Assembly: GCF_019890615.1 (NCBI RefSeq)
Contig: NZ_JAINVZ010000003.1
Coordinates: 1 to 64,000 of the forward strand
Source of the DNA: Streptantibioticus parmotrematis
Lineage (GTDB): Bacteria > Actinomycetota > Actinomycetes > Streptomycetales > Streptomycetaceae
Direction of reading: 5' to 3'
Length of the DNA stretch: 64,000 nt
Position 1 is the stretch's first letter. Each line of letters opens with the position of its first letter. Positions 1 through 35,864 of the stretch are shown here, piece by piece. The notes beneath the pieces were generated by a model, which saw nothing but the letters and a program-made list of their open reading frames with translations, did no database searches and had not been told where the DNA came from. A program made the translations under genes and the position numbers.

Positions 1-21
1 ACCGGAAAGCGAGGAGGGACG

Positions 22-189
22 TCAGGCGGGCAGCACGACCGCCGCCCGCGGCGGCCCCCTGGAGACGATGGCGTTGGCGAGCAGCAGCACGAGCGGTGAG
101 AACAGCCGGACGGCGACCGCCCGGCCGAGCTGGAACGCGGCACGCTCCCCATAGGCCAGCCAGACACCGCAGAGCACGGCGGCCAGCAT
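22..189 (-). CDS. Small hydrophobic protein, uncharacterised (55 aa)
   Basis: I do not recognise this frame. It starts with ATG, ends in TGA, has GC-rich third positions and encodes a mostly hydrophobic peptide with two apolar stretches, roughly residues 1-12 and 28-41. It lies just downstream of the C39-like peptidase gene on the same strand. No convincing ribosome binding site is seen. A second minus-strand frame is open just upstream (about 191-248) and reads like protein, so this could be the C-terminal part of a longer gene broken by a frameshift. Function unknown. Confidence 0.3.
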   Translation of the reverse strand: MLAAVLCGVWLAYGERAAFQLGRAVAVRLFSPLVLLLANAIVSRGPPRAAVVLPA

Positions 190-248
190 GCCTCGTCCGC
201 AGCGAGCGCCACCGCGAGGTCGTCGGGACCGCCTTCGTCACCGCCCGG

Positions 249-1628
249 TCAGCACACCCCCACGTCTCGCAGCGCGTCGCGCTGGGCCGGTGAGGCGTCG
301 GTCGGCCAGTACAGGTACACCACCCCGCCCGACCCGCTCCCCACCTGGCCGTTCGCCAGGTAGCGCTTGGTGCGCAGCCAGATGTTCTCGAACTGCCGTC
401 GCTGGTAGACGTGGCGGACCGCCGCGTCGTCGGGGCTGGCGGGGTCGTTGACCACCACGTCGCCGGTCGTGGTGAATCCCGCGACGCACATCAGGTGGCC
501 CGCCGTGCTGTAGCCGGAGCCGTCGAGTTCCGAGGCCAGGAAGGACTGGGACGTTATCACCGGGATGTCCGCGGCGATCAGCCGTTCCACGTCGTTCAGG
601 GAGCGCAGCCGGGTGATGACGGCGTTCATGTCGCGGTAGCTCGCCGCGTAGGCCGCGTTGAACGGCCAGTTGCCGCAGCCCTGGTACTGGTAGTCGTAGG
701 TGTAGCGGGCGGCCTGGTCGACCTGGGGGTCGGCGTAGGAGGGGTCGACCCAGGCGAGGCCGGCCGGGGTGGGCTTGCGGCCCCAGTACTCCAGGGCCAT
801 CTGCGAGGAGGTCGGGCTGCACCACGCCTCGCCGCCGTTGTCGTACTGCGGGTACTGGCCCTTGTGGATGTCCTGCGAGTAGCACGGCACCGGCAGCCGC
901 TTGCCGAGCGCCAGCCGGGGGGTGGACGCCGGGACGGTGAAGCGGTCGGGGATGTCGGAGGCCATCGCGCCGAGCCGCCACACCACCGGGGTGAGCCGGG
1001 TGCCGGGCTTGCGGTACAGCGTCAGGCGCAGCCGGTACGCGGCCAGCCGCAGGCCGCTCGCGGGCTTGTCGACGGCGAAGGTGTCGGTGGAGATCGCGCT
1101 GCGTCCGTCGCCCTGGCCGTCCACGGAGGTGCGCCTGATGTCGCCGTCGCCCGCCGCCCAGCGGCCCATCACGTACCACGGGGTCGCGGTGCCGTCGCTG
1201 TAGGTGCCGCCCAGTTCGACCTGGATCCAGGTGCCGGCCGGAGTGTCCGCGTTCCAGGACGCGACGAGTTCGGTGGCCGGGTGCGGGAGCCCGCGTTCCG
1301 GCGAGGTCCACACCGCGTACTCCCACTCGGCGGTGGTCCCGGTGTGCGGGTCGGTGTACGAGGTCGTCCCGGCCGGGCGGTCGACGGCGACGCCGGGGCG
1401 GGATCCGGCGCGCACGGTCGTTCCGCGTCCGGCGCCGCAGCGCCAGTCGGTGTACGAGGTCCAGGCGTGGTAGTCCACGGGTGCCGCCTCCCCGGCGGTT
1501 CCGGGCGCGGTCGCCGCCCGGTCCGGGCCGGTGGCCGCGGCCGCCCGCGCCGGGACGGCCACGGCGGCGGTCGCGGCGGCGGCGAAGGCGGCGGCCAGAA
1601 CGGTGCGGCGCGGCGCGGGTCTCGTCAT
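249..1628 (-). CDS. Secreted C39-like peptidase
   Basis: This is a predicted exported cysteine peptidase of the C39-like family. The N-terminus carries a twin-arginine-type signal (RRTVLAA followed by an alanine-rich hydrophobic run and an ARA cleavage-like site), so export by Tat is likely. The peptidase part lies in the C-terminal half, with the probable catalytic cysteine C270 in AWCSPTS and the probable histidine H378 in AGHLMC, followed by a VVNDP aspartate motif. The N-terminal half is a less recognisable beta-rich region. I chose the ATG at 1628 rather than the longer frame because AAGGAG lies about 12 nt upstream and the signal peptide begins there. The substrate is unknown. C39 peptidases in ABC exporters cut double-glycine leaders, but this one has no transporter domains. 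Confidence 0.85.
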   Translation of the reverse strand: MTRPAPRRTVLAAAFAAAATAAVAVPARAAAATGPDRAATAPGTAGEAAPVDYHAWTSYTDWRCGAGRGTTVRAGSRPGVAVDRPAGTTSYTDPHTGTTAEWEYAVWTSPERGLPHPATELVASWNADTPAGTWIQVELGGTYSDGTATPWYVMGRWAAGDGDIRRTSVDGQGDGRSAISTDTFAVDKPASGLRLAAYRLRLTLYRKPGTRLTPVVWRLGAMASDIPDRFTVPASTPRLALGKRLPVPCYSQDIHKGQYPQYDNGGEAWCSPTSSQMALEYWGRKPTPAGLAWVDPSYADPQVDQAARYTYDYQYQGCGNWPFNAAYAASYRDMNAVITRLRSLNDVERLIAADIPVITSQSFLASELDGSGYSTAGHLMCVAGFTTTGDVVVNDPASPDDAAVRHVYQRRQFENIWLRTKRYLANGQVGSGSGGVVYLYWPTDASPAQRDALRDVGVC

Positions 1629-1761
1629 GGCTGGGCCCCGTCTCCTTCGTCGTCGTGCGGCCGACGCGCCGCCTTGCGGCAACTATCGCCCCTGCGCCCG
1701 CCGTTCGGAACCGTTCCCACGCGGCCCGGCGATGTTCATTGGCGCAGACCACTGGCATGGC

Positions 1762-2901
1762 TCAGCCGGGCAGCACCACCAGGTCGCGCCCGGTGACGTT
1801 GAGCCGTTCGCCGCCGTCGGCCGTGCAGACCGCGATGTCCTCGATACGGGCGCCGAACCTGCCGGGCAGGTAGATGCCGGGCTCGATGGAGAAGGCCATG
1901 CCGGGTTCCAGCGCGAGGTCGCTGCCCGCCACGATGTACGGCTCCTCGTGCGTCTCCAGGCCGATGCCGTGGCCGGTGCGGTGGATGAAGTGGTCGCCGA
2001 AGCCCGCGTCCTCGATGATGTCGCGGCCGACCGCGTCCAGTTCCTGCGCGGTGATCCCGGGCCGTACCGCCTCGGTCTGCGCCTGCTGGGCCCGTCGCAG
2101 TACGGCGTACAGCTCGCGGAAGTCGGAGTGCGGCTCGCCGACCGCGTAGGTGCGGGTGGAGTCCGAGCAGTACCCCTCCGGCGTGGTGCCGCCGATGTCG
2201 ACCACCACCGGGTCACCCGGGCGGATCACCCGGTCGGAGACCTCGTGGTGCGGGCTGGCGCCGTTGGGCCCCGATCCGACGATGACGAAGTCGCAGGTGG
2301 CGTGGCCGGCCTGGAGGATGGCGTCGGCGATGTCGCGGGCCACGTCGCGTTCGGTGCGACCGGGCTTGAGCCACTCGCCGATCCTGCGGTGCACCCGGTC
2401 GATCGCCGCCCCGGCCCGGCGCAGCGCCTCCACCTCTGCGGGGCCCTTGCGCATCCGCAGCTCCCGCAGCACCTCACCGGCGAGGGACTGTTCGGCGTCC
2501 GGCATGGCGGCCCGGAAGGCCAGCAGCTTCTCGGCCCACATGTGGTTGTCGACGGCGATCCGCTTCACGTTCCTCGGCAGCCGCTCGGCGACCACCGCGT
2601 ACGGGTCGTCGGTCTCCGCCCAGCCGATGACCTCCAGGTCGAGGTCGCCGGCCGGGGAGGCCTCGGCCGCGGGCTTCTCCAGCGCGGGCACCACCAGCAG
2701 CGGGTCGCCGTCGGCCGGGATCACCAGGCAGGTCAGGCGCTCCAGCGGATGGGCGTGGTATCCGGTCAGATAGCGCAGGTCGGCGCTGGGTGAGACGAGC
2801 AGCGCGTCGAGCCCGGCCTCGGCGGCGGCCCGGCGGGCCCGCTCGATCCGGTCGGCGGGGTAGAGGTCGGTGGCGGCTGGGGAGCCCGGGGTGTCAGTCA
2901 C
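1762..2901 (-). CDS. M24 family aminopeptidase P / Xaa-Pro peptidase
   Basis: This is a cytoplasmic metallopeptidase of the M24B (pita-bread) family, expected to cleave X-Pro peptide bonds. The N-terminal creatinase-like domain covers about residues 20-150 and the catalytic domain follows. All five expected metal ligands are visible: Asp in VVDIGG, Asp in YCSDSTRT, His in TGHGIGLE, Glu in SIEPG and Glu in ARIEDI. Length (379 aa) is normal. The GTG at 2901 is preferred because a TAACGT -10-like hexamer (2909-2914) lies 7 nt upstream, which is the geometry of a leaderless Streptomyces transcript. A second GTG at 2910 is in frame but falls inside that hexamer. It stands as its own transcription unit, divergent from the next gene. 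Confidence 0.88.
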   Translation of the reverse strand: MTDTPGSPAATDLYPADRIERARRAAAEAGLDALLVSPSADLRYLTGYHAHPLERLTCLVIPADGDPLLVVPALEKPAAEASPAGDLDLEVIGWAETDDPYAVVAERLPRNVKRIAVDNHMWAEKLLAFRAAMPDAEQSLAGEVLRELRMRKGPAEVEALRRAGAAIDRVHRRIGEWLKPGRTERDVARDIADAILQAGHATCDFVIVGSGPNGASPHHEVSDRVIRPGDPVVVDIGGTTPEGYCSDSTRTYAVGEPHSDFRELYAVLRRAQQAQTEAVRPGITAQELDAVGRDIIEDAGFGDHFIHRTGHGIGLETHEEPYIVAGSDLALEPGMAFSIEPGIYLPGRFGARIEDIAVCTADGGERLNVTGRDLVVLPG

Positions 2902-2908
2902 GACGATC

Positions 2909-2914
2909 ACGTTA
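2909..2914 (-). promoter_or_regulatory. Probable -10 element for a leaderless M24 peptidase transcript
   Basis: The minus strand reads TAACGT, then 7 nt, then the GTG start. This fits TANNNT placed so that transcription starts at the initiation codon. No good -35 is seen, so the call rests on spacing. Confidence 0.45.
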
Positions 2915-3034
2915 GACGCCCGGTGCCGCCGCGGGCGCCGGGCACGCACGAGCCGCCGCGACGCGCAGGGGGCGGCCCGGGGGCTCCGCGTCCGATGGCC
3001 GGATTCGTGCGCACGCACCGTAGGCTGGAGCGCG

Positions 3035-3652
3035 ATGGACCGGACCACGAAGGACGCCTCCCCCGAGGCGCCCACCCCGCTGCCCGCCTACGCCGCCGGG
3101 CTGCGCGCCCTCGCCCCGTCCTGCGGCCCGGTGCGGCTGGTCGCCGTCGACGGGCACGCGGGCTCGGGGAAGTCCACGTTCGCCGCACGGCTGTCCGGCG
3201 CCCTCGGCGGTGCTCCCGTGGTCCACCTCGACGACCTCGCCACCCACGACGAACCGTTCGGCTGGACGCGGTCGCTGCGCGAACGGGTGCTGGAGCCGTT
3301 GTCGCGCGGCGCGGACGCCGTCTGCCCGGTCTACGACTGGACGGCGCGCCGCTTCGGCCCGGGCCGCCCGGTGCCGTGCGCCCCGGTGGTGATCGTCGAG
3401 GGCGTGGGGGCCGGACGGGCCGCGCTCCGGCCGTTCCTGGCCAGGACGCTGTGGATGGAGATGGCCCCCGAGTCGGCCTGGGCGCGCGGCCGGCACCGCG
3501 ACGGTCCGGCGCTGCGGGAGTTCTGGGACGGCTGGATGCGGGCGGAGACCGAACACTTCGCGGCCGATCCGACACGCCCGTTCGCCGACGAGGTGGTGCG
3601 GCAGGTACCCGGCGGTCACCAGGTGCTCTCGGGGCCGATGGGCCCGCGCTGA
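3035..3652 (+). CDS. Uridine kinase-like P-loop kinase
   Basis: This 205-aa protein belongs to the P-loop kinase superfamily and resembles uridine kinases and related small-molecule kinases. A Walker A motif GHAGSGKST sits near residues 36-44, followed by an HLDDL segment typical of nucleoside kinases and a VIVEGVGAGR strand with an acidic residue. The phosphate acceptor cannot be read from sequence. The ATG at 3035 has GGAG 4 nt upstream and a TAGGCT -10-like hexamer at 3021-3026, so the mRNA leader is probably very short. It is divergent from the M24 peptidase gene; the two starts are 133 bp apart. Confidence 0.8.
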   Translation: MDRTTKDASPEAPTPLPAYAAGLRALAPSCGPVRLVAVDGHAGSGKSTFAARLSGALGGAPVVHLDDLATHDEPFGWTRSLRERVLEPLSRGADAVCPVYDWTARRFGPGRPVPCAPVVIVEGVGAGRAALRPFLARTLWMEMAPESAWARGRHRDGPALREFWDGWMRAETEHFAADPTRPFADEVVRQVPGGHQVLSGPMGPR

Positions 3653-3738
3653 GCAGCCCGGTGCCTCACGTACCGTGACGGCGCGCAGCCGGTGTGCCGC
3701 CGGACACGATTCACTCCCGGCCAGTGGCTCAACGTGGC

Positions 3739-3768
3739 TTGACCTGGGGGGCGTACAGGACTTACGTT
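3739..3768 (+). promoter_or_regulatory. Vegetative-type promoter, TTGACC-N18-TACGTT
   Basis: A TTGACC -35 (3739-3744) and a TACGTT -10 (3763-3768) are 18 bp apart, close to the main sigma factor consensus of Streptomyces. Transcription would start near 3775. It is too far from the next gene (start 4135) and is followed at once by a terminator-like hairpin. Confidence 0.6.
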
Positions 3769-3774
3769 CTCAAT

Positions 3775-3850
3775 GCGCGGTCCGTCACGGATCGCCCCGA
3801 GCACGAAGCCCCCGGTTGTTCCCCCGTGACCGGGGGCTTCGTCCTGTTCC
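3775..3850 (+). ncRNA. Candidate small RNA with C-rich loop and terminator hairpin
   Basis: The predicted transcript is about 70-80 nt. Its 5' part can fold a short stem (CCGT with ACGG). Its 3' part is a perfect 12-bp stem, GAAGCCCCCGGT (3805-3816) with ACCGGGGGCTTC (3829-3840), closing a 12-nt loop that contains five consecutive C, and a pyrimidine-rich tail follows. C-rich loops in bacterial small RNAs often pair with G-rich ribosome binding sites, so a regulatory role is conceivable. No open reading frame is evident. I could not match it to a named RNA family, and the ends are estimates. Confidence 0.45.
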
Positions 3851-4134
3851 GGGCGGACGGGTATTTCCGTTTCGCCGGATAACGCCCTCCGGCGGTCCTC
3901 ACCCTCCGTCACGATGTCGCGGAAGCCGGTGCACAGGCCGGTTCCTGGCCCGTTCCGCCGCCGGGCGGTGCGCCTCCCCCTCCCAGGCGCCAACACCGCA
4001 GGTACGATGCCCAAGGGAGCGCGGCAGGTTGTCACGGCGGTCGCTCCGGCGCCAACTTCCGTACGGAGAGCCGCTGTTCGGCCCCGGCCGGAGCGCGGCG
4101 GCAGGCCACCGGGGGCACGGTAGTGGGGGACCTG

Positions 4135-6084
4135 ATGGACTTCGGCACTGAGGCGGTACCCCCGCAGGGCGGGGCTGGCTCCGGCGCCCCCGCCGACCTG
4201 GCGTGGCTGCGCGGCGTGGACGCCTACACGGTCGGCGCGTACGCGCAGGCGGAGGAGGAGTTCCGGGCGGCGGTGCGGCTGGACCCGGGCATGGCCGACG
4301 CCTGGCTCGGGCTGCACGCGCTGCGCGCCGACACCTCGACGGCGCTGCTGCGGATGTACCGGCACCGGGACCGCTTCGGCGAGCAGCGGCGCCGCTATCT
4401 GCGCGCCCTCAACTCCTGGTACTGGCTGGGGTGGTGGGTGCAGCCGGTGCTGGAGACCCCGCGCGACCTGCTGCTGGCGCACGCCTCGCACTGGCTGGAC
4501 GGCCGGCACGTGGCCGACCTCGACCGGGCGCTGGCGGACTGTCCCCCGGTGGACACCGATCCGCAGGTGCGCTTCCTGCACGCGTGTCGCGCGTACCTGG
4601 TCAAGGACTGGGAGCAGCTGATACGCCACGCGGAACCGCTGCTGGAGGACCCGGTGCTCGGCATAGAGGCGGGGCTGTTCGGCGGGATGGCCCGGGTGCG
4701 GCTGGAGATGTGCGGGCAGGCGGAACCCCTGCTGGCCACCGCGCTGATGCGCTGCCGCAGCGAGCAGCCGCAGCGCAAGGAGCTGCGGTACTGGCTGGCC
4801 CGCGCCTACGAGGGCACCGGACGCACCGCGGCCGCCCTGCCGCTGTACCGGGCGGTGCACCGGGTGGACCCGGCGTTCATGGACACCGCCGCGCGGCTGG
4901 CCGCGATCACGGAGGCCGAGGACGGGCTGCACGAGTCGCAGGACCTGGCCGCGATCTCCCTGCCCGGCTACGGGCAGACCGCCCCGGACGGCCTGCCGGA
5001 CACCGACCCCGGCGCGCCGTGCGACTCCCCCGGCGAGATCGGCGGGCCGGGCGGGCCCGGCGAGACGGCGGGCGAGGGCGGGGACGCGGCGGGGGGCCCG
5101 GGCGGTGCGGTGACCGGGTCGGCGCCGGTGGACGACGCCGGAGCGCGGCGCAAGGCACTGCTGCCGGTCTCCCCCATCACGCCGCCGGGCGTGCCGCTGG
5201 GCACCGCCGATCCCGCGCTGCTGGCCGACGCGCTGGCCGAGCTGGAGCGGATGGTGGGGCTGGAGCCGGTGAAACGGCAGGTCAAGGCGTTGTCGGCGCA
5301 GCTGAGGATGGCCCGGTTGCGAGCCGGCCAGGGCCTACCGGTGCAGCCGCCGAAGCGGCACTTCGTCTTCTCCGGCCCGTCCGGCACCGGCAAGACCACG
5401 GTCGCCCGCATCCTCGGCCGGGTCTTCTACGCGCTCGGGCTGCTCGGCGGCGACCACCTGGTGGAGGCCCAACGCGCCGATCTGGTGGGCGAGTTCCTGG
5501 GCCAGACCGCGGTGAAGGCCAACGAGCTGATCGACTCGGCGCTGGGCGGCGTGCTCTTCGTCGACGAGGCGTACAGCCTGTCCAACTCCGGCTACGGCAA
5601 GGGCGACGCGTACGGCGACGAGGCGTTGCAGGTGCTGCTCAAACGGGCCGAGGACAACCGGGACCGCCTGGTGGTGATCCTCGCCGGGTACCCGGAGGGC
5701 ATGGACCGGCTGCTGGCGGCCAACCCGGGGCTCGGCTCGCGGTTCACCACCCGGGTGGACTTCCCCAGCTACCGCCCGCTGGAACTGACCCGCATCGGCG
5801 AGGTACTGGCGGCCGACGGCGGCGACCACTGGGACGAGGAGGCGCTGGAGGAGCTGCGCAGCATCAGCGGACACGTCGTCGCCCAGGAGTGGATAGACGA
5901 GCTGGGCAACGGCCGCTTCCTGCGGACGCTGTACGAGAAGAGCTGCGCCTACCGCGACCTGAGGCTGTCGGCGTACACCGGCGCCCCGACCCGCGAGGAC
6001 CTGTCCACCCTGCGGCTGGCGGACCTGATGCAGGCCTACGGTGAGGTGCTCTCCGGCCGCGGTCCGGGGCAGCCGCCGCAGTGA
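4135..6084 (+). CDS. TPR-AAA+ ATPase (CbxX/CfqX, EccA-like)
   Basis: This 649-aa cytoplasmic protein joins an N-terminal tetratricopeptide-like helical region (about residues 10-270), a Gly/Ala/Pro-rich linker (about 290-345) and a C-terminal AAA+ ATPase of the CbxX/CfqX type. Walker A GPSGTGKTT is near residues 414-422 and Walker B VLFVDEA near 473-479. The domain order is that of EccA ATPases of type VII secretion, but no ESX component, WXG100 protein or EccC is nearby, so that role is not supported here. The ATG at 4135 has GGGGGA about 5 nt upstream. A GTG four codons earlier (4123) is possible but lacks a ribosome binding site. The 3' end faces the CNNM pair. Confidence 0.85.
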   Translation: MDFGTEAVPPQGGAGSGAPADLAWLRGVDAYTVGAYAQAEEEFRAAVRLDPGMADAWLGLHALRADTSTALLRMYRHRDRFGEQRRRYLRALNSWYWLGWWVQPVLETPRDLLLAHASHWLDGRHVADLDRALADCPPVDTDPQVRFLHACRAYLVKDWEQLIRHAEPLLEDPVLGIEAGLFGGMARVRLEMCGQAEPLLATALMRCRSEQPQRKELRYWLARAYEGTGRTAAALPLYRAVHRVDPAFMDTAARLAAITEAEDGLHESQDLAAISLPGYGQTAPDGLPDTDPGAPCDSPGEIGGPGGPGETAGEGGDAAGGPGGAVTGSAPVDDAGARRKALLPVSPITPPGVPLGTADPALLADALAELERMVGLEPVKRQVKALSAQLRMARLRAGQGLPVQPPKRHFVFSGPSGTGKTTVARILGRVFYALGLLGGDHLVEAQRADLVGEFLGQTAVKANELIDSALGGVLFVDEAYSLSNSGYGKGDAYGDEALQVLLKRAEDNRDRLVVILAGYPEGMDRLLAANPGLGSRFTTRVDFPSYRPLELTRIGEVLAADGGDHWDEEALEELRSISGHVVAQEWIDELGNGRFLRTLYEKSCAYRDLRLSAYTGAPTREDLSTLRLADLMQAYGEVLSGRGPGQPPQ

Positions 6085-6118
6085 CGGTCGCCCCGGTCCG
6101 CTCCGGTCCCCGGCGGGG

Positions 6119-7219
6119 TCAGCCCGCCAGCGCCCGCGACTGGGCGCCGGAGCGGGGGCCGGGCGCGGCGTGGCCCGCGGCGTCCCGGTGGGCGGGGTCG
6201 CGCACCTCCCCGACCAGCATCTCCAGCACGTCCTCCAGCGCGACCAGGCCCAGCACCTCACCGTCCGCGTCGGCGACCGCCGCCAGATGGGAGGCGGCCC
6301 GGCGCATCGCGGTGAGCGCGTCGTCCAGCGGCAGCTCGGCCTTGAGCGTGGTCATCGGGCGCCACAGCCTGCGCGGCACCGGCCGGTCGCCCTCGTCGTT
6401 CTCGGCCGGTTCCAGGACGTCCTTGACGTGCAGGTAGCCCAGGAAGCCCCCGTCGGGCCCGGCGACCGGGAAGCGGGAGTAGCCGGTGGAGACGGTCAGC
6501 TCCTCGACCTGGTGCGGGGTGACCTCGGGGCCGACGGTGACCAGTTCGCCGGGGCGCAGCAGCACGTCGGTGACCGGGCGGCTGCCCAGCTCCAGCGCGT
6601 CGGACAGGCGCTCCTGCTCGGCCCGGTCGAGCAGGCCCGCCTGCCCGGAGTCCTCCACCAGGTAGGTGAGCTGCTCGCTGGTGTAGACGGCCTCGATCTC
6701 GTCCCTCGGCTCGACCCGGAAGATCCGCAGCACCAGCCGGGCGCAGGCGCTCAGCACCACGATGACCGGCCGGAAGACGCGGGCGCAGCCGACCAGGCCG
6801 GGGCCCAGCCACAGCGCCGCCTTCTCCGGGGAGGCCATCGCGAGGTTCTTCGGCACCAGCTCTCCGACCACCAGGTGGAAGAAGATCACCACGGCGAGCG
6901 CGACGACGTAGCCGATCGGGTGGACCAGCTCGCCGGGCACGCGCAGCGCGGAGAAGACCGGCTCCAGCAGACGGGAGACGGTCGGCTCGGCGACGGCACC
7001 GAGGGTCAGCGAGCAGACGGTCACGCCGAACTGCGCGGCGGCCATCATCCGCGGCAGGTTCTCCAGGCCGTGCAGCACGGTGCGGGCCCGGCGCTGGTCC
7101 GCGGCGAGCGGTTCGATCTGGCTGCGGCGCACCGAGACCATGGCGAACTCGGCGCCGACGAAGAAGCCGTTGCCGAGGACCAGCAGCGCCGCGAAGAACA
7201 GTTGCAGCACACTCGTCAT
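6119..7219 (-). CDS. CNNM/CorC-like membrane protein with CBS pair (short form)
   Basis: This 366-aa protein has an N-terminal CNNM (DUF21) transmembrane domain over about residues 1-190, starting with a hydrophobic helix that contains LVLGNGFFVGAEFA, then a CBS-domain pair ending near residue 340. The C-terminal CorC/HlyC transporter-associated domain of the longer partner is absent. Related proteins are implicated in magnesium or other divalent-cation homeostasis; the old label is hemolysin-like. Its ATG overlaps the stop of the upstream longer homologue by 4 nt, so the two are probably co-translated and may form a heterodimer. Ion specificity cannot be judged. Confidence 0.87.
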   Translation of the reverse strand: MTSVLQLFFAALLVLGNGFFVGAEFAMVSVRRSQIEPLAADQRRARTVLHGLENLPRMMAAAQFGVTVCSLTLGAVAEPTVSRLLEPVFSALRVPGELVHPIGYVVALAVVIFFHLVVGELVPKNLAMASPEKAALWLGPGLVGCARVFRPVIVVLSACARLVLRIFRVEPRDEIEAVYTSEQLTYLVEDSGQAGLLDRAEQERLSDALELGSRPVTDVLLRPGELVTVGPEVTPHQVEELTVSTGYSRFPVAGPDGGFLGYLHVKDVLEPAENDEGDRPVPRRLWRPMTTLKAELPLDDALTAMRRAASHLAAVADADGEVLGLVALEDVLEMLVGEVRDPAHRDAAGHAAPGPRSGAQSRALAG

Positions 7220-8541
7220 GACCGCTCCTCGCGCCCCGCGCCCACGCGCGTCAGCCGGATGCGTTCGGCCCGGTGGTGGCCGACCTCCAGCACCTCGATC
7301 CGCCAGCCGGGCAGCTCGGTCACGTCACCGGCCTGCGGGATGCGTCCCAGCAGGTCGGCGACGAGCCCGGCCACCGTCTCGTACGGGCCTTCCGGTGCCT
7401 CCAGGCCGATCCTGGCCAGGATGTCGGTGCGACAGGCACCGTCGGCGTCCCACGCCGGGTGGCCGTCCTGCGCCGGTGCCTGGGCCAGCTCGGGCGTGTC
7501 GGCGTCGGCGTCGTCGTGCTCGTCGCGGACCTCGCCGACGAGTTCCTCGACGATGTCCTCCAGGGTGACCACCCCCGCCGTGCCGCCGTACTCGTCCACG
7601 ACCACGGCGATCGGCTGCTCGCTGCGCAGCTGCTCCAGCAGCGGCTGCACCGGCAGCGTCTCGGGGACCAGGAGCGGCGCCACCGCGATCCGGCCCACCG
7701 GGGTGCGGTCACGCAGGTGCTTGGGCACCGACAGCGCATCTTTGAGGTGGACCATGCCGACCACCTCGTCGAGCCGCTCGCGGTAGACCGGGAAGCGGGA
7801 CAGGCCGGTGGCCCGGGTCAAATTGAGCACGTCGGCCGCGGTGGTGGTGTCCTCCAGGGCGCTGACCTTGACGCGGGCGGTCATCACCGACTGCGCGGTC
7901 AGCTCGCCCAGGCCCGCGGTGCGCACGAACAGGTCCGCGGTGTCCTGCTCGATGGCTCCGGCCAGGGCGGAGTGCCGGGCCAGCGAGACCAGCTCGCCCG
8001 GGGTGCGGGCGGAAGCCAGTTCGTCGGTGGGCTCCACGCCCAGCGCGCGGACCAGGCGGTTGGCGGAGGCGTTGAGCAGTTCGATGACCGGGCGGAACAG
8101 GCGGCTGAAGGCGCGCTGCGGTCCGGCCACCATGCGGGCGACCGCCAGCGGCCGGGAGACCGCCCAGTTCTTGGGCACCAGCTCGCCGATGACCATCTGC
8201 ACGCTGGAGGCCAGGACCATGCCGAGCACCACGGCGACGCCGGACGCGGCCTCGCCCAGGCCGATGGCGGTGAGCGGGCCGGTGAGCAGGTGGGAGAGGG
8301 CCGGCTCGGCGAGCATGCCGACCACCAGCGAGGTGATGGTGATGCCCAGCTGGGAGCCGGAGAGCTGGAAGGAGAGCCGGCGCAGGGCGGCGACGACGCC
8401 GCGGGCCCGGCGGTCACCGGCCGCGGCGGCCCGTTCGGCCTCGGGCCGGTCGACGGTCACCAGACCGAACTCGGCGGCGACGAAGAAGCCGTTGGCCAGG
8501 ATGAGCAGGAGTGCCGCGCCGAGCAGCAGAAGGGAACTCAT
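7216..8541 (-). CDS. CNNM/CorC-like membrane protein with CBS pair and CorC domain (long form)
   Basis: This 441-aa protein has the full architecture: a CNNM transmembrane domain (about residues 1-195, with ILANGFFVAAEF in the first helix), two CBS motifs (about 205-335, including VVVDEYGGTAGVVTLEDI) and a C-terminal CorC/HlyC domain (about 345-430). It probably takes part in divalent-cation transport or efflux at the cell membrane. It is the promoter-proximal member of a coupled pair. A 23-codon open frame ends on its start codon with an ATGA overlap (see 8538-8609), so its translation may depend on that leader. The family is well known; the substrate is not. Confidence 0.88.
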   Translation of the reverse strand: MSSLLLLGAALLLILANGFFVAAEFGLVTVDRPEAERAAAAGDRRARGVVAALRRLSFQLSGSQLGITITSLVVGMLAEPALSHLLTGPLTAIGLGEAASGVAVVLGMVLASSVQMVIGELVPKNWAVSRPLAVARMVAGPQRAFSRLFRPVIELLNASANRLVRALGVEPTDELASARTPGELVSLARHSALAGAIEQDTADLFVRTAGLGELTAQSVMTARVKVSALEDTTTAADVLNLTRATGLSRFPVYRERLDEVVGMVHLKDALSVPKHLRDRTPVGRIAVAPLLVPETLPVQPLLEQLRSEQPIAVVVDEYGGTAGVVTLEDIVEELVGEVRDEHDDADADTPELAQAPAQDGHPAWDADGACRTDILARIGLEAPEGPYETVAGLVADLLGRIPQAGDVTELPGWRIEVLEVGHHRAERIRLTRVGAGREERS

Positions 8542-8609
8542 GCCGCCACCACCGCGCGCGGGGCGCTTCGGTCGGGGGCGGCGCAGGTACTACAGGACGA
8601 TTCGTCCAT
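8538..8609 (-). CDS. Candidate leader peptide / uORF (23 aa, two Cys)
   Basis: A 23-codon frame beginning MDESSCSTC starts with ATG at 8609 and its TGA overlaps the ATG of the long CNNM gene. GAGGAG lies about 16 nt upstream of its ATG, rather far but the only purine-rich site. The CNNM gene itself shows no separate ribosome binding site, so re-initiation after this frame is a plausible way to start it. The two cysteine codons near the N-terminus recall short actinobacterial cysteine-containing leader peptides, but nothing here proves a regulatory role. Confidence 0.35.
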   Translation of the reverse strand: MDESSCSTCAAPDRSAPRAVVAA

Positions 8610-8794
8610 CGCCGGAAAAGTGTCACTCCTCGGATCGTTCCGGTTCCCCGCGAGCCGCGCTCGGGGCGCGGCTCGTACACGGCGGGGGCGGGCGCACCGG
8701 CGCCTCGCTCTTCCAGAGTAGTCAAGCCATGCCCTGCGGCGGGAGTCACGACGGGCCGCCGCCGCGCCGGATTCCACCCGCGGTGGCGGACCGG

Positions 8795-9295
8795 TTACGC
8801 GGCGTCCGCGGGACCGGTGCCCAGCGCGTCGGCGAGTGCGCGCAGCCTGCGCGCGTCGCTGACCGCCTGCTGGCGGGCGATACCGGGCTGGATGCCCATC
8901 GCCGCCAGGCTGGTGCCGTCGGCGAGGTCGAGGTAGACCCACGGGTCACCGGCCCGCAGGTTGACGCGCAGCACCTCAGCCCACGCCAGCCGGCGCACCG
9001 TGGTGAGGTTCACCACCGTGACGCCGTCCCGGGTGGCGACCACCTTCGGGCGGCTGAGCAGCGCCAGCACGGCGAAGATGATCAGCCCGGTGCCGATCAT
9101 GGTGGCCCGGTCCGCCGCGGCCCAGGGCGCGGGCATGGCCAGCGCGACGGTGGCGAAGGTGATCAGCATGACGCTGCCCACCGTGAGCAGCACCACCCGG
9201 GTGCGCACCGGGCGGAAGGTCACCGGCAGCGCGGTCGGTTCGTCGGGTGCGGGCATGTCGGCGGTCTTCCCGGTACGGGACGCGGCGGAGGTCAT
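8795..9295 (-). CDS. PH domain-containing membrane protein
   Basis: This 166-aa protein has two hydrophobic segments (about residues 33-55 and 62-82) followed by a short bacterial PH-like domain (about 85-140, including a GVTVVNL strand). Such proteins are common in Streptomyces next to hisG and their function is unknown. A role at the inner face of the membrane is inferred from topology only. A 12-bp hairpin separates it from hisG upstream, so it may be reached mainly by readthrough or by its own promoter. Confidence 0.78.
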   Translation of the reverse strand: MTSAASRTGKTADMPAPDEPTALPVTFRPVRTRVVLLTVGSVMLITFATVALAMPAPWAAADRATMIGTGLIIFAVLALLSRPKVVATRDGVTVVNLTTVRRLAWAEVLRVNLRAGDPWVYLDLADGTSLAAMGIQPGIARQQAVSDARRLRALADALGTGPADAA

Positions 9296-9352
9296 GGTGG
9301 GCGCTTCGCAGGAGTTCGGAGGGCGGGTGGAACGGGACGGGCGCGGGCCGGT

Positions 9353-9381
9353 GGCGGCCCCGGCACGACGCCGGGGCCGCC
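9353..9381 (-). terminator. Hairpin after hisG
   Basis: A perfect 12-bp stem (9353-9364 with 9370-9381) closes a 5-nt loop just after the hisG stop. There is no T run, which is usual in Streptomyces. It probably ends hisE-hisG transcripts. Confidence 0.6.
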
Positions 9382-9386
9382 CGGGG

Positions 9387-10235
9387 TCACAGGCGGCAGG
9401 CGTGGATGCCGGTGGTCAGGATGGCACGGGCGCCCAGCTCGTAGAGGTCGTCCATGATCCGCTGGGCCTCGCGGGACGGGACCATGGAGCGCACGGCGAC
9501 CCAGCCCTCGTGGTGCAGCGGGGAGATGGTGGGCGACTCCAGGCCCGGGGTGAGCGCCACGGCCTTCTCGACCTTCTCGGCGCGGATGTCGTAGTCCATC
9601 ATCACGTAGCGCCGGGCGACCAGGACGCCCTGCATGCGGCGCAGGAACTGCTGGACCTTCGGCTCGTCCTGGGGCGCGCCGACACGGCGGATGACGACCG
9701 CCTCGGACTCCAGGATCGGCTCGCCGATGATCTCCAGGCCCGCGTTGCGCAGGGTGGTGCCGGTCTCCACGACGTCCGCGATGACCTCGGCGACGCCGAG
9801 CTGGATCGCGGTCTCGACGGCGCCGTCGAGGTGGACCACGGAGGCGTCCACGCCGTTGTCGGCGAGGTGCTTCTCCACCAGCCCGGCGAAGGAGGTGGCG
9901 ATCGTCATGCCGCCGAACTCCTTGACGCCGGTGGCCGTCCCCGGCCGGGTGGCGTAGCGGAACGTGGAGGCGGCGAAGCCCAGTTGGAGGATCTCCTCCG
10001 CCTGCGCCCCGGAGTCCAGCAGCAGGTCGCGGCCGGTGATGCCGATGTCGAGACGGCCGGAGCCGACGTAGACGGCGATGTCCCTGGGGCGCAGGAAGAA
10101 GAACTCCACCTGGTTGTCGGAGTCGACCAGGACCAGTTCGCGGCGGTCCTTGCGCTGCCGGTAGCCGGCCTCATGCAGCATCGCCGACGCAGGCTCGGAC
10201 AGTGAACCCTTGTTGGGGACGGCGATGCGCAGCAT
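9387..10235 (-). CDS. hisG: ATP phosphoribosyltransferase, long form
   Basis: HisG joins ATP and PRPP to give N1-(5-phosphoribosyl)-ATP, the first and feedback-controlled step of histidine synthesis. The protein begins MLRIAVPNKGSL, the family's typical start. At 282 aa it is the long type, with a C-terminal ACT-like regulatory domain (about residues 210-282) that binds histidine, so it should not need HisZ. A DIGITGRD motif lies in the catalytic part. AAGGA lies about 10 nt before the ATG. It is 57 nt downstream of hisE; the other his genes are not in this window. Confidence 0.97.
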   Translation of the reverse strand: MLRIAVPNKGSLSEPASAMLHEAGYRQRKDRRELVLVDSDNQVEFFFLRPRDIAVYVGSGRLDIGITGRDLLLDSGAQAEEILQLGFAASTFRYATRPGTATGVKEFGGMTIATSFAGLVEKHLADNGVDASVVHLDGAVETAIQLGVAEVIADVVETGTTLRNAGLEIIGEPILESEAVVIRRVGAPQDEPKVQQFLRRMQGVLVARRYVMMDYDIRAEKVEKAVALTPGLESPTISPLHHEGWVAVRSMVPSREAQRIMDDLYELGARAILTTGIHACRL

Positions 10236-14863: not shown

Positions 14864-15435
14864 CGGGTCCTCCTGCCTCTTCGGGCACGGACTCCGGGGC
14901 GATAGGGGAATGCCACGGGACGCTTCGCACGGGGAACGCCGGGACGGCCGAGGAACGTCGCGTACGGCGGGGAGCCGGTGGCGACGACCGCTCGGGGCGG
15001 CGTACCCGTGAGGTCCCGCCGCGCACTGCCTCCCATCCGGACTTTAACCGTCGGTCCAGGAATTTCACCTGGTCAACCGGCCGCTGGCAGCGGACGGGTC
15101 GCGGACTGTAACCGCCGGTTCGGACTTTCACCGACCCCGGAGTGCGCCAAACGTCACTGGTACGTCTTCAGTCTGCCACGGACGGCGCAACCCATGCGGC
15201 CGGACCCTTGTGGCCTGGGTCACATGAGCACGACAAGTCAGGATGTTTCGGCGCTTGTCCCGGCGCGCCCCGGCCGGACTCCAGCGCGGCGCGCCGGGCC
15301 CGCGAGGCGCGGGCCGGTCGACGGCCGTCGCGGAGCGCCGAACTACGATGTCGGGCGGTTCATCCCGCGAAGATCCGGATCGTCCCCGCGGGAGGGCCGC
15401 CGACACCGACCGACGAAGGACACGGAGCACCACGA
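14864..15435. other. Divergent control region between ribD and the uracil permease gene
   Basis: This 572-nt stretch holds the ribD leader with its riboswitch and the promoter region of the permease gene. Between aptamer and ribD (14864-15020) I see GC-rich sequence with possible hairpins but no clear terminator. A TACGAT hexamer at 15344-15349 may be the -10 for the permease gene. I could not place the ribD promoter with confidence. No additional gene is supported. Confidence 0.6.
15021..15147 (-). promoter_or_regulatory. FMN riboswitch (RFN element)
   Basis: The minus strand carries the RFN consensus in order: CGGTGAAAGTCCG, then CGGCGGTTACAGTCCGCGA, the paired CCAGGTGAAATTCCTGG arm, then AAAGTCCGGATGGGAGGCAG. 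The outer P1 helix is closed by perfect 7-bp pairing of 15141-15147 with 15021-15027. It sits in the leader of ribD. FMN binding to this class turns off downstream genes; whether by termination or by hiding the ribosome binding site is not clear, since no T-rich terminator is evident between the aptamer and ribD. Confidence 0.95.
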
Positions 15436-35633: not shown

Positions 35634-35711
35634 ATCGCTCCCTGGGGTTGCAGCGGCTGCTGGCTGATAGGAGAAGTCCGCATGCGGGGCTGCGCCCGTC
35701 GGACCACGGCC

Positions 35712-35717
35712 AGTTTA
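35712..35717 (-). promoter_or_regulatory. Possible -10 element for metK
   Basis: The minus strand reads TAAACT (TANNNT) about 80 nt before the metK GTG. A recognisable -35 is lacking. Confidence 0.35.
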
Positions 35718-35864
35718 ACGGTCGTGTCGAGCGGACGGACACCGCGTCTCGGTCCGTGGATGGCTCCATGGACCCGATGACCTGCGTCTCCCGCTCGAAC
35801 ACTACGACGATACGCCTTTCACCGTACGGAAACGGGGGTATTCGCCCGGTCAGGCGTGCCGCAT

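Follow-up and report, generated by a model that had tools for sequence, protein, structure and literature searches.

A widely conserved small RNA with a near-invariant C-rich loop upstream of an AAA-ATPase gene in Streptomycetaceae, very probably the orthologue of scr1434

Does the interval between two genes near the start of a Streptantibioticus parmotrematis contig encode a small RNA, and if so, which RNA is it and what might it do? The window, that is, the whole stretch of DNA analysed here, comprises 64,000 nt (contig NZ_JAINVZ010000003.1, positions 1 to 64,000, forward strand). The initial annotation had proposed for 3739-3850 a small RNA with a strong promoter, a perfect 12-bp hairpin with CCCCC in the loop and no ORF, and had suggested that the loop could target G-rich ribosome binding sites. 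The features of the locus are as follows.

3035..3652, + strand: P-loop kinase-like gene (weak AAA_33 match, below the cut-off)
3739..3744, + strand: -35 element TTGACC (read directly; conserved)
3763..3768, + strand: -10 element TACGTT (spacing of 18 from the -35 element)
3773..3847, + strand: predicted small RNA of about 75 nt (start at 3772-3775 placed from the -10 element, end placed from the terminator)
3777..3795, + strand: 5' hairpin, 8 pairs in the window (predicted fold; sequence variable)
3803..3842, + strand: 3' terminator hairpin, 15 pairs (arms 3803-3817 with 3828-3842; covariation)
3818..3827, + strand: near-invariant loop GTTCCCCCGT, the proposed target-binding part (exact in 171 of 177 loci)
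4001..4010, + strand: GGTACGATGC, probable -10 region of the AAA gene's own promoter (conserved GGTA-N1-2-ATG)
4123..6084, + strand: EccA/SpoVK-like AAA-ATPase gene (Pfam T7SS_EccA1_N and AAA above the cut-off)

The promoter hexamers were read as first described, TTGACC at 3739-3744 and TACGTT at 3763-3768 with a spacing of 18. TTGACC was located within 130 nt upstream of the RNA in 168 of 171 hairpin-bearing loci; the other three are enlarged forms, two of which (L223 and L224) have a readable TTGACC further upstream, while the sequence of the third (L220) begins inside the promoter. The spacing between the two elements was 18 in 167 of the 168 loci and 17 in one, and the -10 element was TACGTT in 156, TAAGTT in five, TAGGTT in five, TACCTT in one and TAATGT in one. 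As loci L032-L147 were retrieved by an exact -10-region pattern containing TACGTT, promoter identity in them is partly the result of selection, and the independent evidence comes from the loci found otherwise. The promoter first called strong is conserved across the family, but it does not stand out by consensus: the -10 element in the window fits TANNNT only, and a strict E. coli-type promoter scan of positions 1-10000 listed none. An inverted repeat, CCGAGT-N5-8-ACTCGG, ends just 5' of the -35 element in 49 of the 168 loci when sought with a simple pattern. Many Streptomyces loci (e.g. L007) have it no more than 30 bases ahead of the -35 element; it is not clearly present in the window, and is possibly an activator site.

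The terminal hairpin is present and longer than the 12 perfect pairs first noted, as 15 pairs are formed, the innermost being U-G. Its loop is a decanucleotide, GUUCCCCCGU in RNA form, and holds the five C originally reported. Among the six of 177 loci without the exact loop, L181 has GTTCCCCCGC, three (L213, L214 and L221) are without the element and two (L142 and L217) end within it; the count of 177 leaves out L227-L230, which were inspected apart and in which the element is absent. The 171 exact loci are not equivalent to independent genomes, as some share a genome (e.g. L003 and L046), and the pair counts used distinct sequences only. Conservation of structure among relatives, the check named in the initial annotation, was borne out by covarying hairpins across the family. 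In 20 distinct hairpins with the exact loop, 280 of 280 pair cells (14 pairs counted) were standard pairs, against a shuffled mean of 65.7% and 36.8-50.7% in slid versions. Double-sided changes were carried by 93 cells and occurred in 13 of the 14 stem pairs, and the divergent copies together change every stem pair. As a hairpin was admitted to this set if its loop was exact and adjoined by no fewer than 7 consecutive pairs, loop invariance inside the set is given by construction and the loop-proximal pairs are partly conditioned by the filter; the outer seven pairs are unconditioned. Independent evidence for the loop was obtained from L177-L189, found with a whole-RNA model, of which 12 of 13 were exact and L181 was one base off, and from loci fetched with the AAA gene as bait, of which 14 were exact, seven were without the element and one was cut by the contig end. 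The 23 other occurrences of the core GTTCCCCCG, one of which is L181, had only 0-2 pairs around them. In the sequences compared, the stem drifts while its pairing is kept and the loop is near-invariant.

A second, smaller hairpin was found beside the noted one, at 3777-3795, with the loop UCA, which is not C-rich. In 55 sequences chosen for diversity, 93.5% of the 5'-helix cells were paired and three of the five 5'-helix pairs counted had double-sided changes; the 24 double-change cells of both helices were reached by none of 500 shuffles, although a tally of three doubly changed pairs was attained in 138 of them. The minimum free energy of 3774-3850 was -45.5 kcal/mol, whereas shuffled sequences averaged -28.5 and none of 200 was as stable (z -5.45), and covariance model R1, whose alignment includes the window sequence, matched 3772-3847 with 80.9 bits. 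There is no T run after the hairpin, and it was not among the two terminator-like sites found in 1-10000, where 1.0 was expected from shuffles; one of those two sites, 3843-3861, lies directly behind it. As the promoter and terminator scans were both negative for this unit, both signals rest on conservation and not on consensus score.

Two departures from the common form were observed. In divergent genera (L178, L179, L183, L184, L188, L189 and similar loci), the 5' loop reads GTTGA and is followed by CAAC; pairing between the two could create a pseudoknot or an alternative hairpin. In one sub-lineage (L220, L223 and L224), the RNA is enlarged: an extra hairpin is present and the terminal stem reaches about 30 pairs. 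The extra hairpin of L223 and L224 contains the core GTTCCCCCG as well and folds with a CCCCC loop.

The statement that the unit has no ORF does not hold to the letter, as an 18-codon frame runs from the ATG at 3773 to a TGA at the loop end; the frame is not conserved, however. A leaderless small protein gene of 18 codons starting at 3773 would account for the ATG being placed where a leaderless start is expected, near which an ATG was found in 148 of 168 loci (the further 20 have none there), and for the 18 codons kept in 73 of the 148. Against it, the frames end at many points, with 47 of the 148 loci showing no stop in the stretch read and 28 ending at other lengths, the loop takes every reading frame with respect to the ATG (frame 0/1/2 in 75/21/52 loci), and the observed base changes and indels follow pairing and not codons. 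The small-protein reading was therefore rejected on frame, though 73 of 148 loci keep the length, and we consider it hardly credible.

Both flanking genes lie on the same strand as the RNA. The kinase-like gene was upstream in 157 of the 162 loci with room for it, and the AAA gene, whose NCBIfam matches to EccA, SpoVK and CbbX are below the cut-off, was downstream in all 159 loci with room, 14 of which had been fetched with the AAA gene as bait. This constant order and the overlap of the ATG-to-TGA frame with the terminator in the window would fit an RNA that is the leader or attenuator of the AAA gene, transcription from TTGACC/TACGTT entering the gene unless stopped by the hairpin. However, the AAA gene is preceded by a separate conserved promoter-like element (region of GGTACGATG), GGTA-N1-2-ATG, which was recognised in 157 of 173 stretches, among them L213, L214 and L221, where the small RNA is absent; the element was not found in the other 16 of the 173 stretches, mostly from divergent genera. 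As it resembles the -10 region of the AAA gene's own promoter, the RNA is probably not the leader of that gene. The distance from the loop to the AAA gene, which ranges from 112 to 550 nt, and the lack of conservation of the short frame also speak against attenuation, which we regard as improbable. The comparisons support instead a free-standing small RNA: it has a conserved promoter of its own and covarying hairpins, its short frame is not maintained, and the AAA gene has a conserved promoter-like element to itself.

The distribution of this RNA was examined with a 161-base query. Of the 394 genomes searched in the window's family, 344 had a match at E <= 0.01, a number that includes weak non-gene matches in at least G097 and probably G011. 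G097 has a match at E 0.0096, yet its AAA locus is without such a hairpin, and G011 has a match at E 0.0046, yet nothing was found in it with R1 and it has no AAA gene. Several genomes without a match to the DNA query do carry the gene. The query hit one place in its own genome, and the other genome of the genus matched with 99% identity; as for paralogues in the own genome, a 28.9-bit match was the opposite strand of the same hairpin and nothing else exceeded 16.5 bits. In an alignment of 30 loci, the promoter was near-invariant, the terminal hairpin almost unchanged and the 5' hairpin variable. Twenty-six selected family genomes that the DNA search had missed or barely reached were searched with a covariance model of the RNA; 21 had a match with E up to 0.1, and in 13 of these 21 the best match (L177-L189) adjoins the AAA gene, while the other places examined (L190-L202) do not.

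The AAA-gene bait was applied to 24 genomes, chosen mostly as missed or weakly matched by the first search; 22 had the gene, with the exact-loop hairpin in 14, its absence in seven and one locus cut by the contig end. Absence of the RNA from seven of the 21 testable genomes of that set indicates that it is dispensable in some lineages. The loci where the AAA gene is conserved and the RNA absent are L213, L214, L221 and L227-L230, and include all three examined genomes of genus g2.

Outside the family, R1 found nothing above 42.5 bits in 296 genomes of the class, and the hairpin-only model R2 found at most 41.2 bits in 394, though weak homologues may have been missed because no more than 16 first-look candidates were scored in each genome and the filters were strict. 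At six of the best outside-family places, tblastn found no AAA gene within 4.5-5 kb. Matching genomes of the same family scored at least 69.7 bits with R1, except G097 (28.4 bits, not the gene), and G115 gave no match; with R2, the sample included 40 genomes of the family, 38 of which were matched, G097 and G115 being the exceptions.

The gene order allowed the RNA to be compared with a published one. Counted from the RNA, the order in the window is AAA, CNNM, CNNM, bPH_6, hisG, hisE, ribH, ribBA, pnuC, ribE, ribD and an FMN riboswitch, the two CNNM genes encoding CNNM/CBS proteins. SCO1443 of S. coelicolor is described as riboflavin synthase behind an FMN riboswitch (PMC4681348), and the AAA gene corresponds by gene order to SCO1434: it stands nine genes before ribE, and nine numbers likewise separate SCO1434 from SCO1443. 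In the window, ribD lies between ribE and the riboswitch, a gene unmentioned in that account of S. coelicolor (PMC4681348). In the account of Moody et al. 2013 (PMC3765725), sRNAs are named after the right-hand flanking gene, and scr1434/sar6912/svr1031 is a highly expressed sRNA, detected by RNA-seq and Northern blotting in three Streptomyces species, which peaks in aerial hyphae formation and sporulation and forms a stem-loop of great stability, its loop rich in C. The RNA of the window thus agrees with scr1434 in its place left of SCO1434, assuming no gene gain or loss over nine genes, in its very stable hairpin with a C-rich loop, and in the type of conservation, the published RNA being conserved in three divergent Streptomyces. 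By this agreement in gene order and form, the RNA is very probably the orthologue of scr1434/sar6912/svr1031, and its expression was very probably already reported in 2013. In that paper the RNA is treated as an independent sRNA (Moody 2013, PMC3765725), a further point against a leader of the AAA gene.

A search of the literature library under the three names gave no paper besides Moody 2013, and none on function. Another RNA described there, scr5583/sar2652/svr5279, shares with it abundance, conservation in Streptomyces and a terminal loop rich in C, but belongs to another locus judging by its name (PMC3765725). The small-RNA stretch itself reached the threshold of no Rfam family; elsewhere in the window, an FMN riboswitch (15019-15149, - strand) and a Streptomyces-metK RNA (35638-35752, - strand) scored above theirs.

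Among the nine Rfam matches to the stretch, all sub-threshold, 6C RNA (RF01066) ranked first by bits and extended over the whole 6C length (E 0.29); mir-1990, P37 and anti-hemB had better E-values and fewer bits. A divergent copy of 6C would explain this rank and the shared layout, as both are small actinobacterial RNAs with two hairpins, the terminator bearing a C-rich loop. In S. coelicolor, an increase of 6C at sporulation has also been reported. However, membership of 6C was rejected at 25.3 bits against a gathering cut-off of 47. 6C has two stem-loops each with at least 6 C in the loop, whereas the loops here are UCA, not C-rich, in the 5' hairpin and GUUCCCCCGU with 5 C, so that there is one C-rich loop, with its five C in a fixed context. 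Nor is this RNA the best 6C candidate of its genome, as C18:42382-42457 scores 43.4 bits (itself below 47) and has two runs of at least 7 C. Matches to 6C at E <= 0.01 were present in 101 of 101 family genomes searched, each better than this RNA and 71 of them over the cut-off, and the place of 6C differs from that of this RNA in 27 of the 101 genomes, compared by eye. As an identity, 6C is therefore largely refuted and very improbable; the two RNAs coexist, and are alike in design, not demonstrably in descent.

What the RNA does was approached through its loop, whose near-invariance supports it as the working part. We favour, with a probability of roughly 0.62, a trans-acting antisense RNA, very probably the scr1434 orthologue, whose C-rich loop binds G-rich ribosome-binding sites. 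An RNA of about 75 nt would be transcribed from its own housekeeping-type promoter and be ended by the very stable hairpin, the stem serving as both scaffold and terminator. The loop GUUCCCCCGU would then be presented to pair with G-rich ribosome-binding regions of mRNAs (ACGGGGGAAC; GGGGGAAC-type sites), and such pairing would block translation, as is thought for the C-rich loops of 6C RNA and of S. aureus RNAIII. RNAIII is a much longer RNA from another phylum. The likeness lies in its C-rich loops, which target mRNAs (mentioned in PMC3765725). Loop targeting of G-rich ribosome-binding sites is plausible, and both the antisense mechanism and its targets are inferred. In Streptomyces, the discussion in PMC3765725 leaves C-loop targeting open, the DNA being so G+C-rich, and the statement in a 2009 paper that Streptomyces has no identifiable Hfq homologue counts against the antisense reading.

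The loop may otherwise be a binding site for a protein that recognises GUUCCCCCGU on a stem and is titrated or guided by the RNA. A near-invariant 10-nt loop on a freely drifting stem is what a protein ligand would lead one to expect, and the core is repeated in the extra hairpin of two relatives. We know of no protein recognising GUUCCCCCGU on a stem, which we count against this reading. The complement of the loop, ACGGGGGAAC, looks like a ribosome-binding site, and the C-rich loops of 6C in M. tuberculosis are reported to mediate mRNA binding without chaperones; an RNA target is therefore favoured, and a protein ligand appears unlikely.

A search for targets of the proposed antisense RNA in Shine-Dalgarno regions, as the initial annotation had advised, provided leads but no fair control, and the targets are unproven. 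ACGGGGGAAC occurred 16 times in the own genome, including once in the gene itself, and the backward control occurred 7 times; this control is unfair for Shine-Dalgarno sequences, and no enrichment is claimed. Ten of the 15 exact sites outside the gene had no frame of at least 60 codons starting close behind. ACGGGGGAAC-N2-12-ATG was found in 140 of 150 family genomes, some matches being the gene's own opposite strand, and G-rich sites in this position may be no more than Shine-Dalgarno sequences. Thirty target loci of a longer list were examined, and three recurrent protein groups (at least 4, 2 and 2 members) were recognised among them, one member of each group being identified. The exact complement lies 2-3 nt before the ATG of an orthologous TIGR03767 metallophosphoesterase gene in at least four genomes of one genus, where the bases between the site and the ATG differ, 3 nt before a DUF4097 gene in at least two genomes, and 4 nt before the ATG of a frame containing DUF5999 in at least two other genomes. 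The TIGR03767 metallophosphoesterase and DUF4097 genes are candidate targets, to be taken as leads.

We also put forward, tentatively, that Streptomycetaceae possess in this RNA a second, 6C-independent C-loop antisense regulator, the regulon of which would be the mRNAs with ACGGGGGAAC over the ribosome-binding site, switched in aerial growth and sporulation, with G-rich tracts such as C34:233149-233245 as possible sponges. With covariation across the family and a loop that is near-invariant, what was an anonymous transcript now provides a precise, testable hypothesis on RNA control of development in antibiotic producers, set in a genus stated by the 2009 paper to have no identifiable Hfq homologue.

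The tract C34:233149-233245 (L241 1465-1565) of the own genome is G-rich, with three exact copies of ACGGGGGAAC and several near copies, and could be a sponge or just a repeat. It is flanked by two short frames whose translations end in DNWQNG and DNWASG, and the longer frame before it looks, in our judgement, like a TPR-type regulator. One of the copies extends to a 14-nt perfect complement of the RNA loop and stem top.
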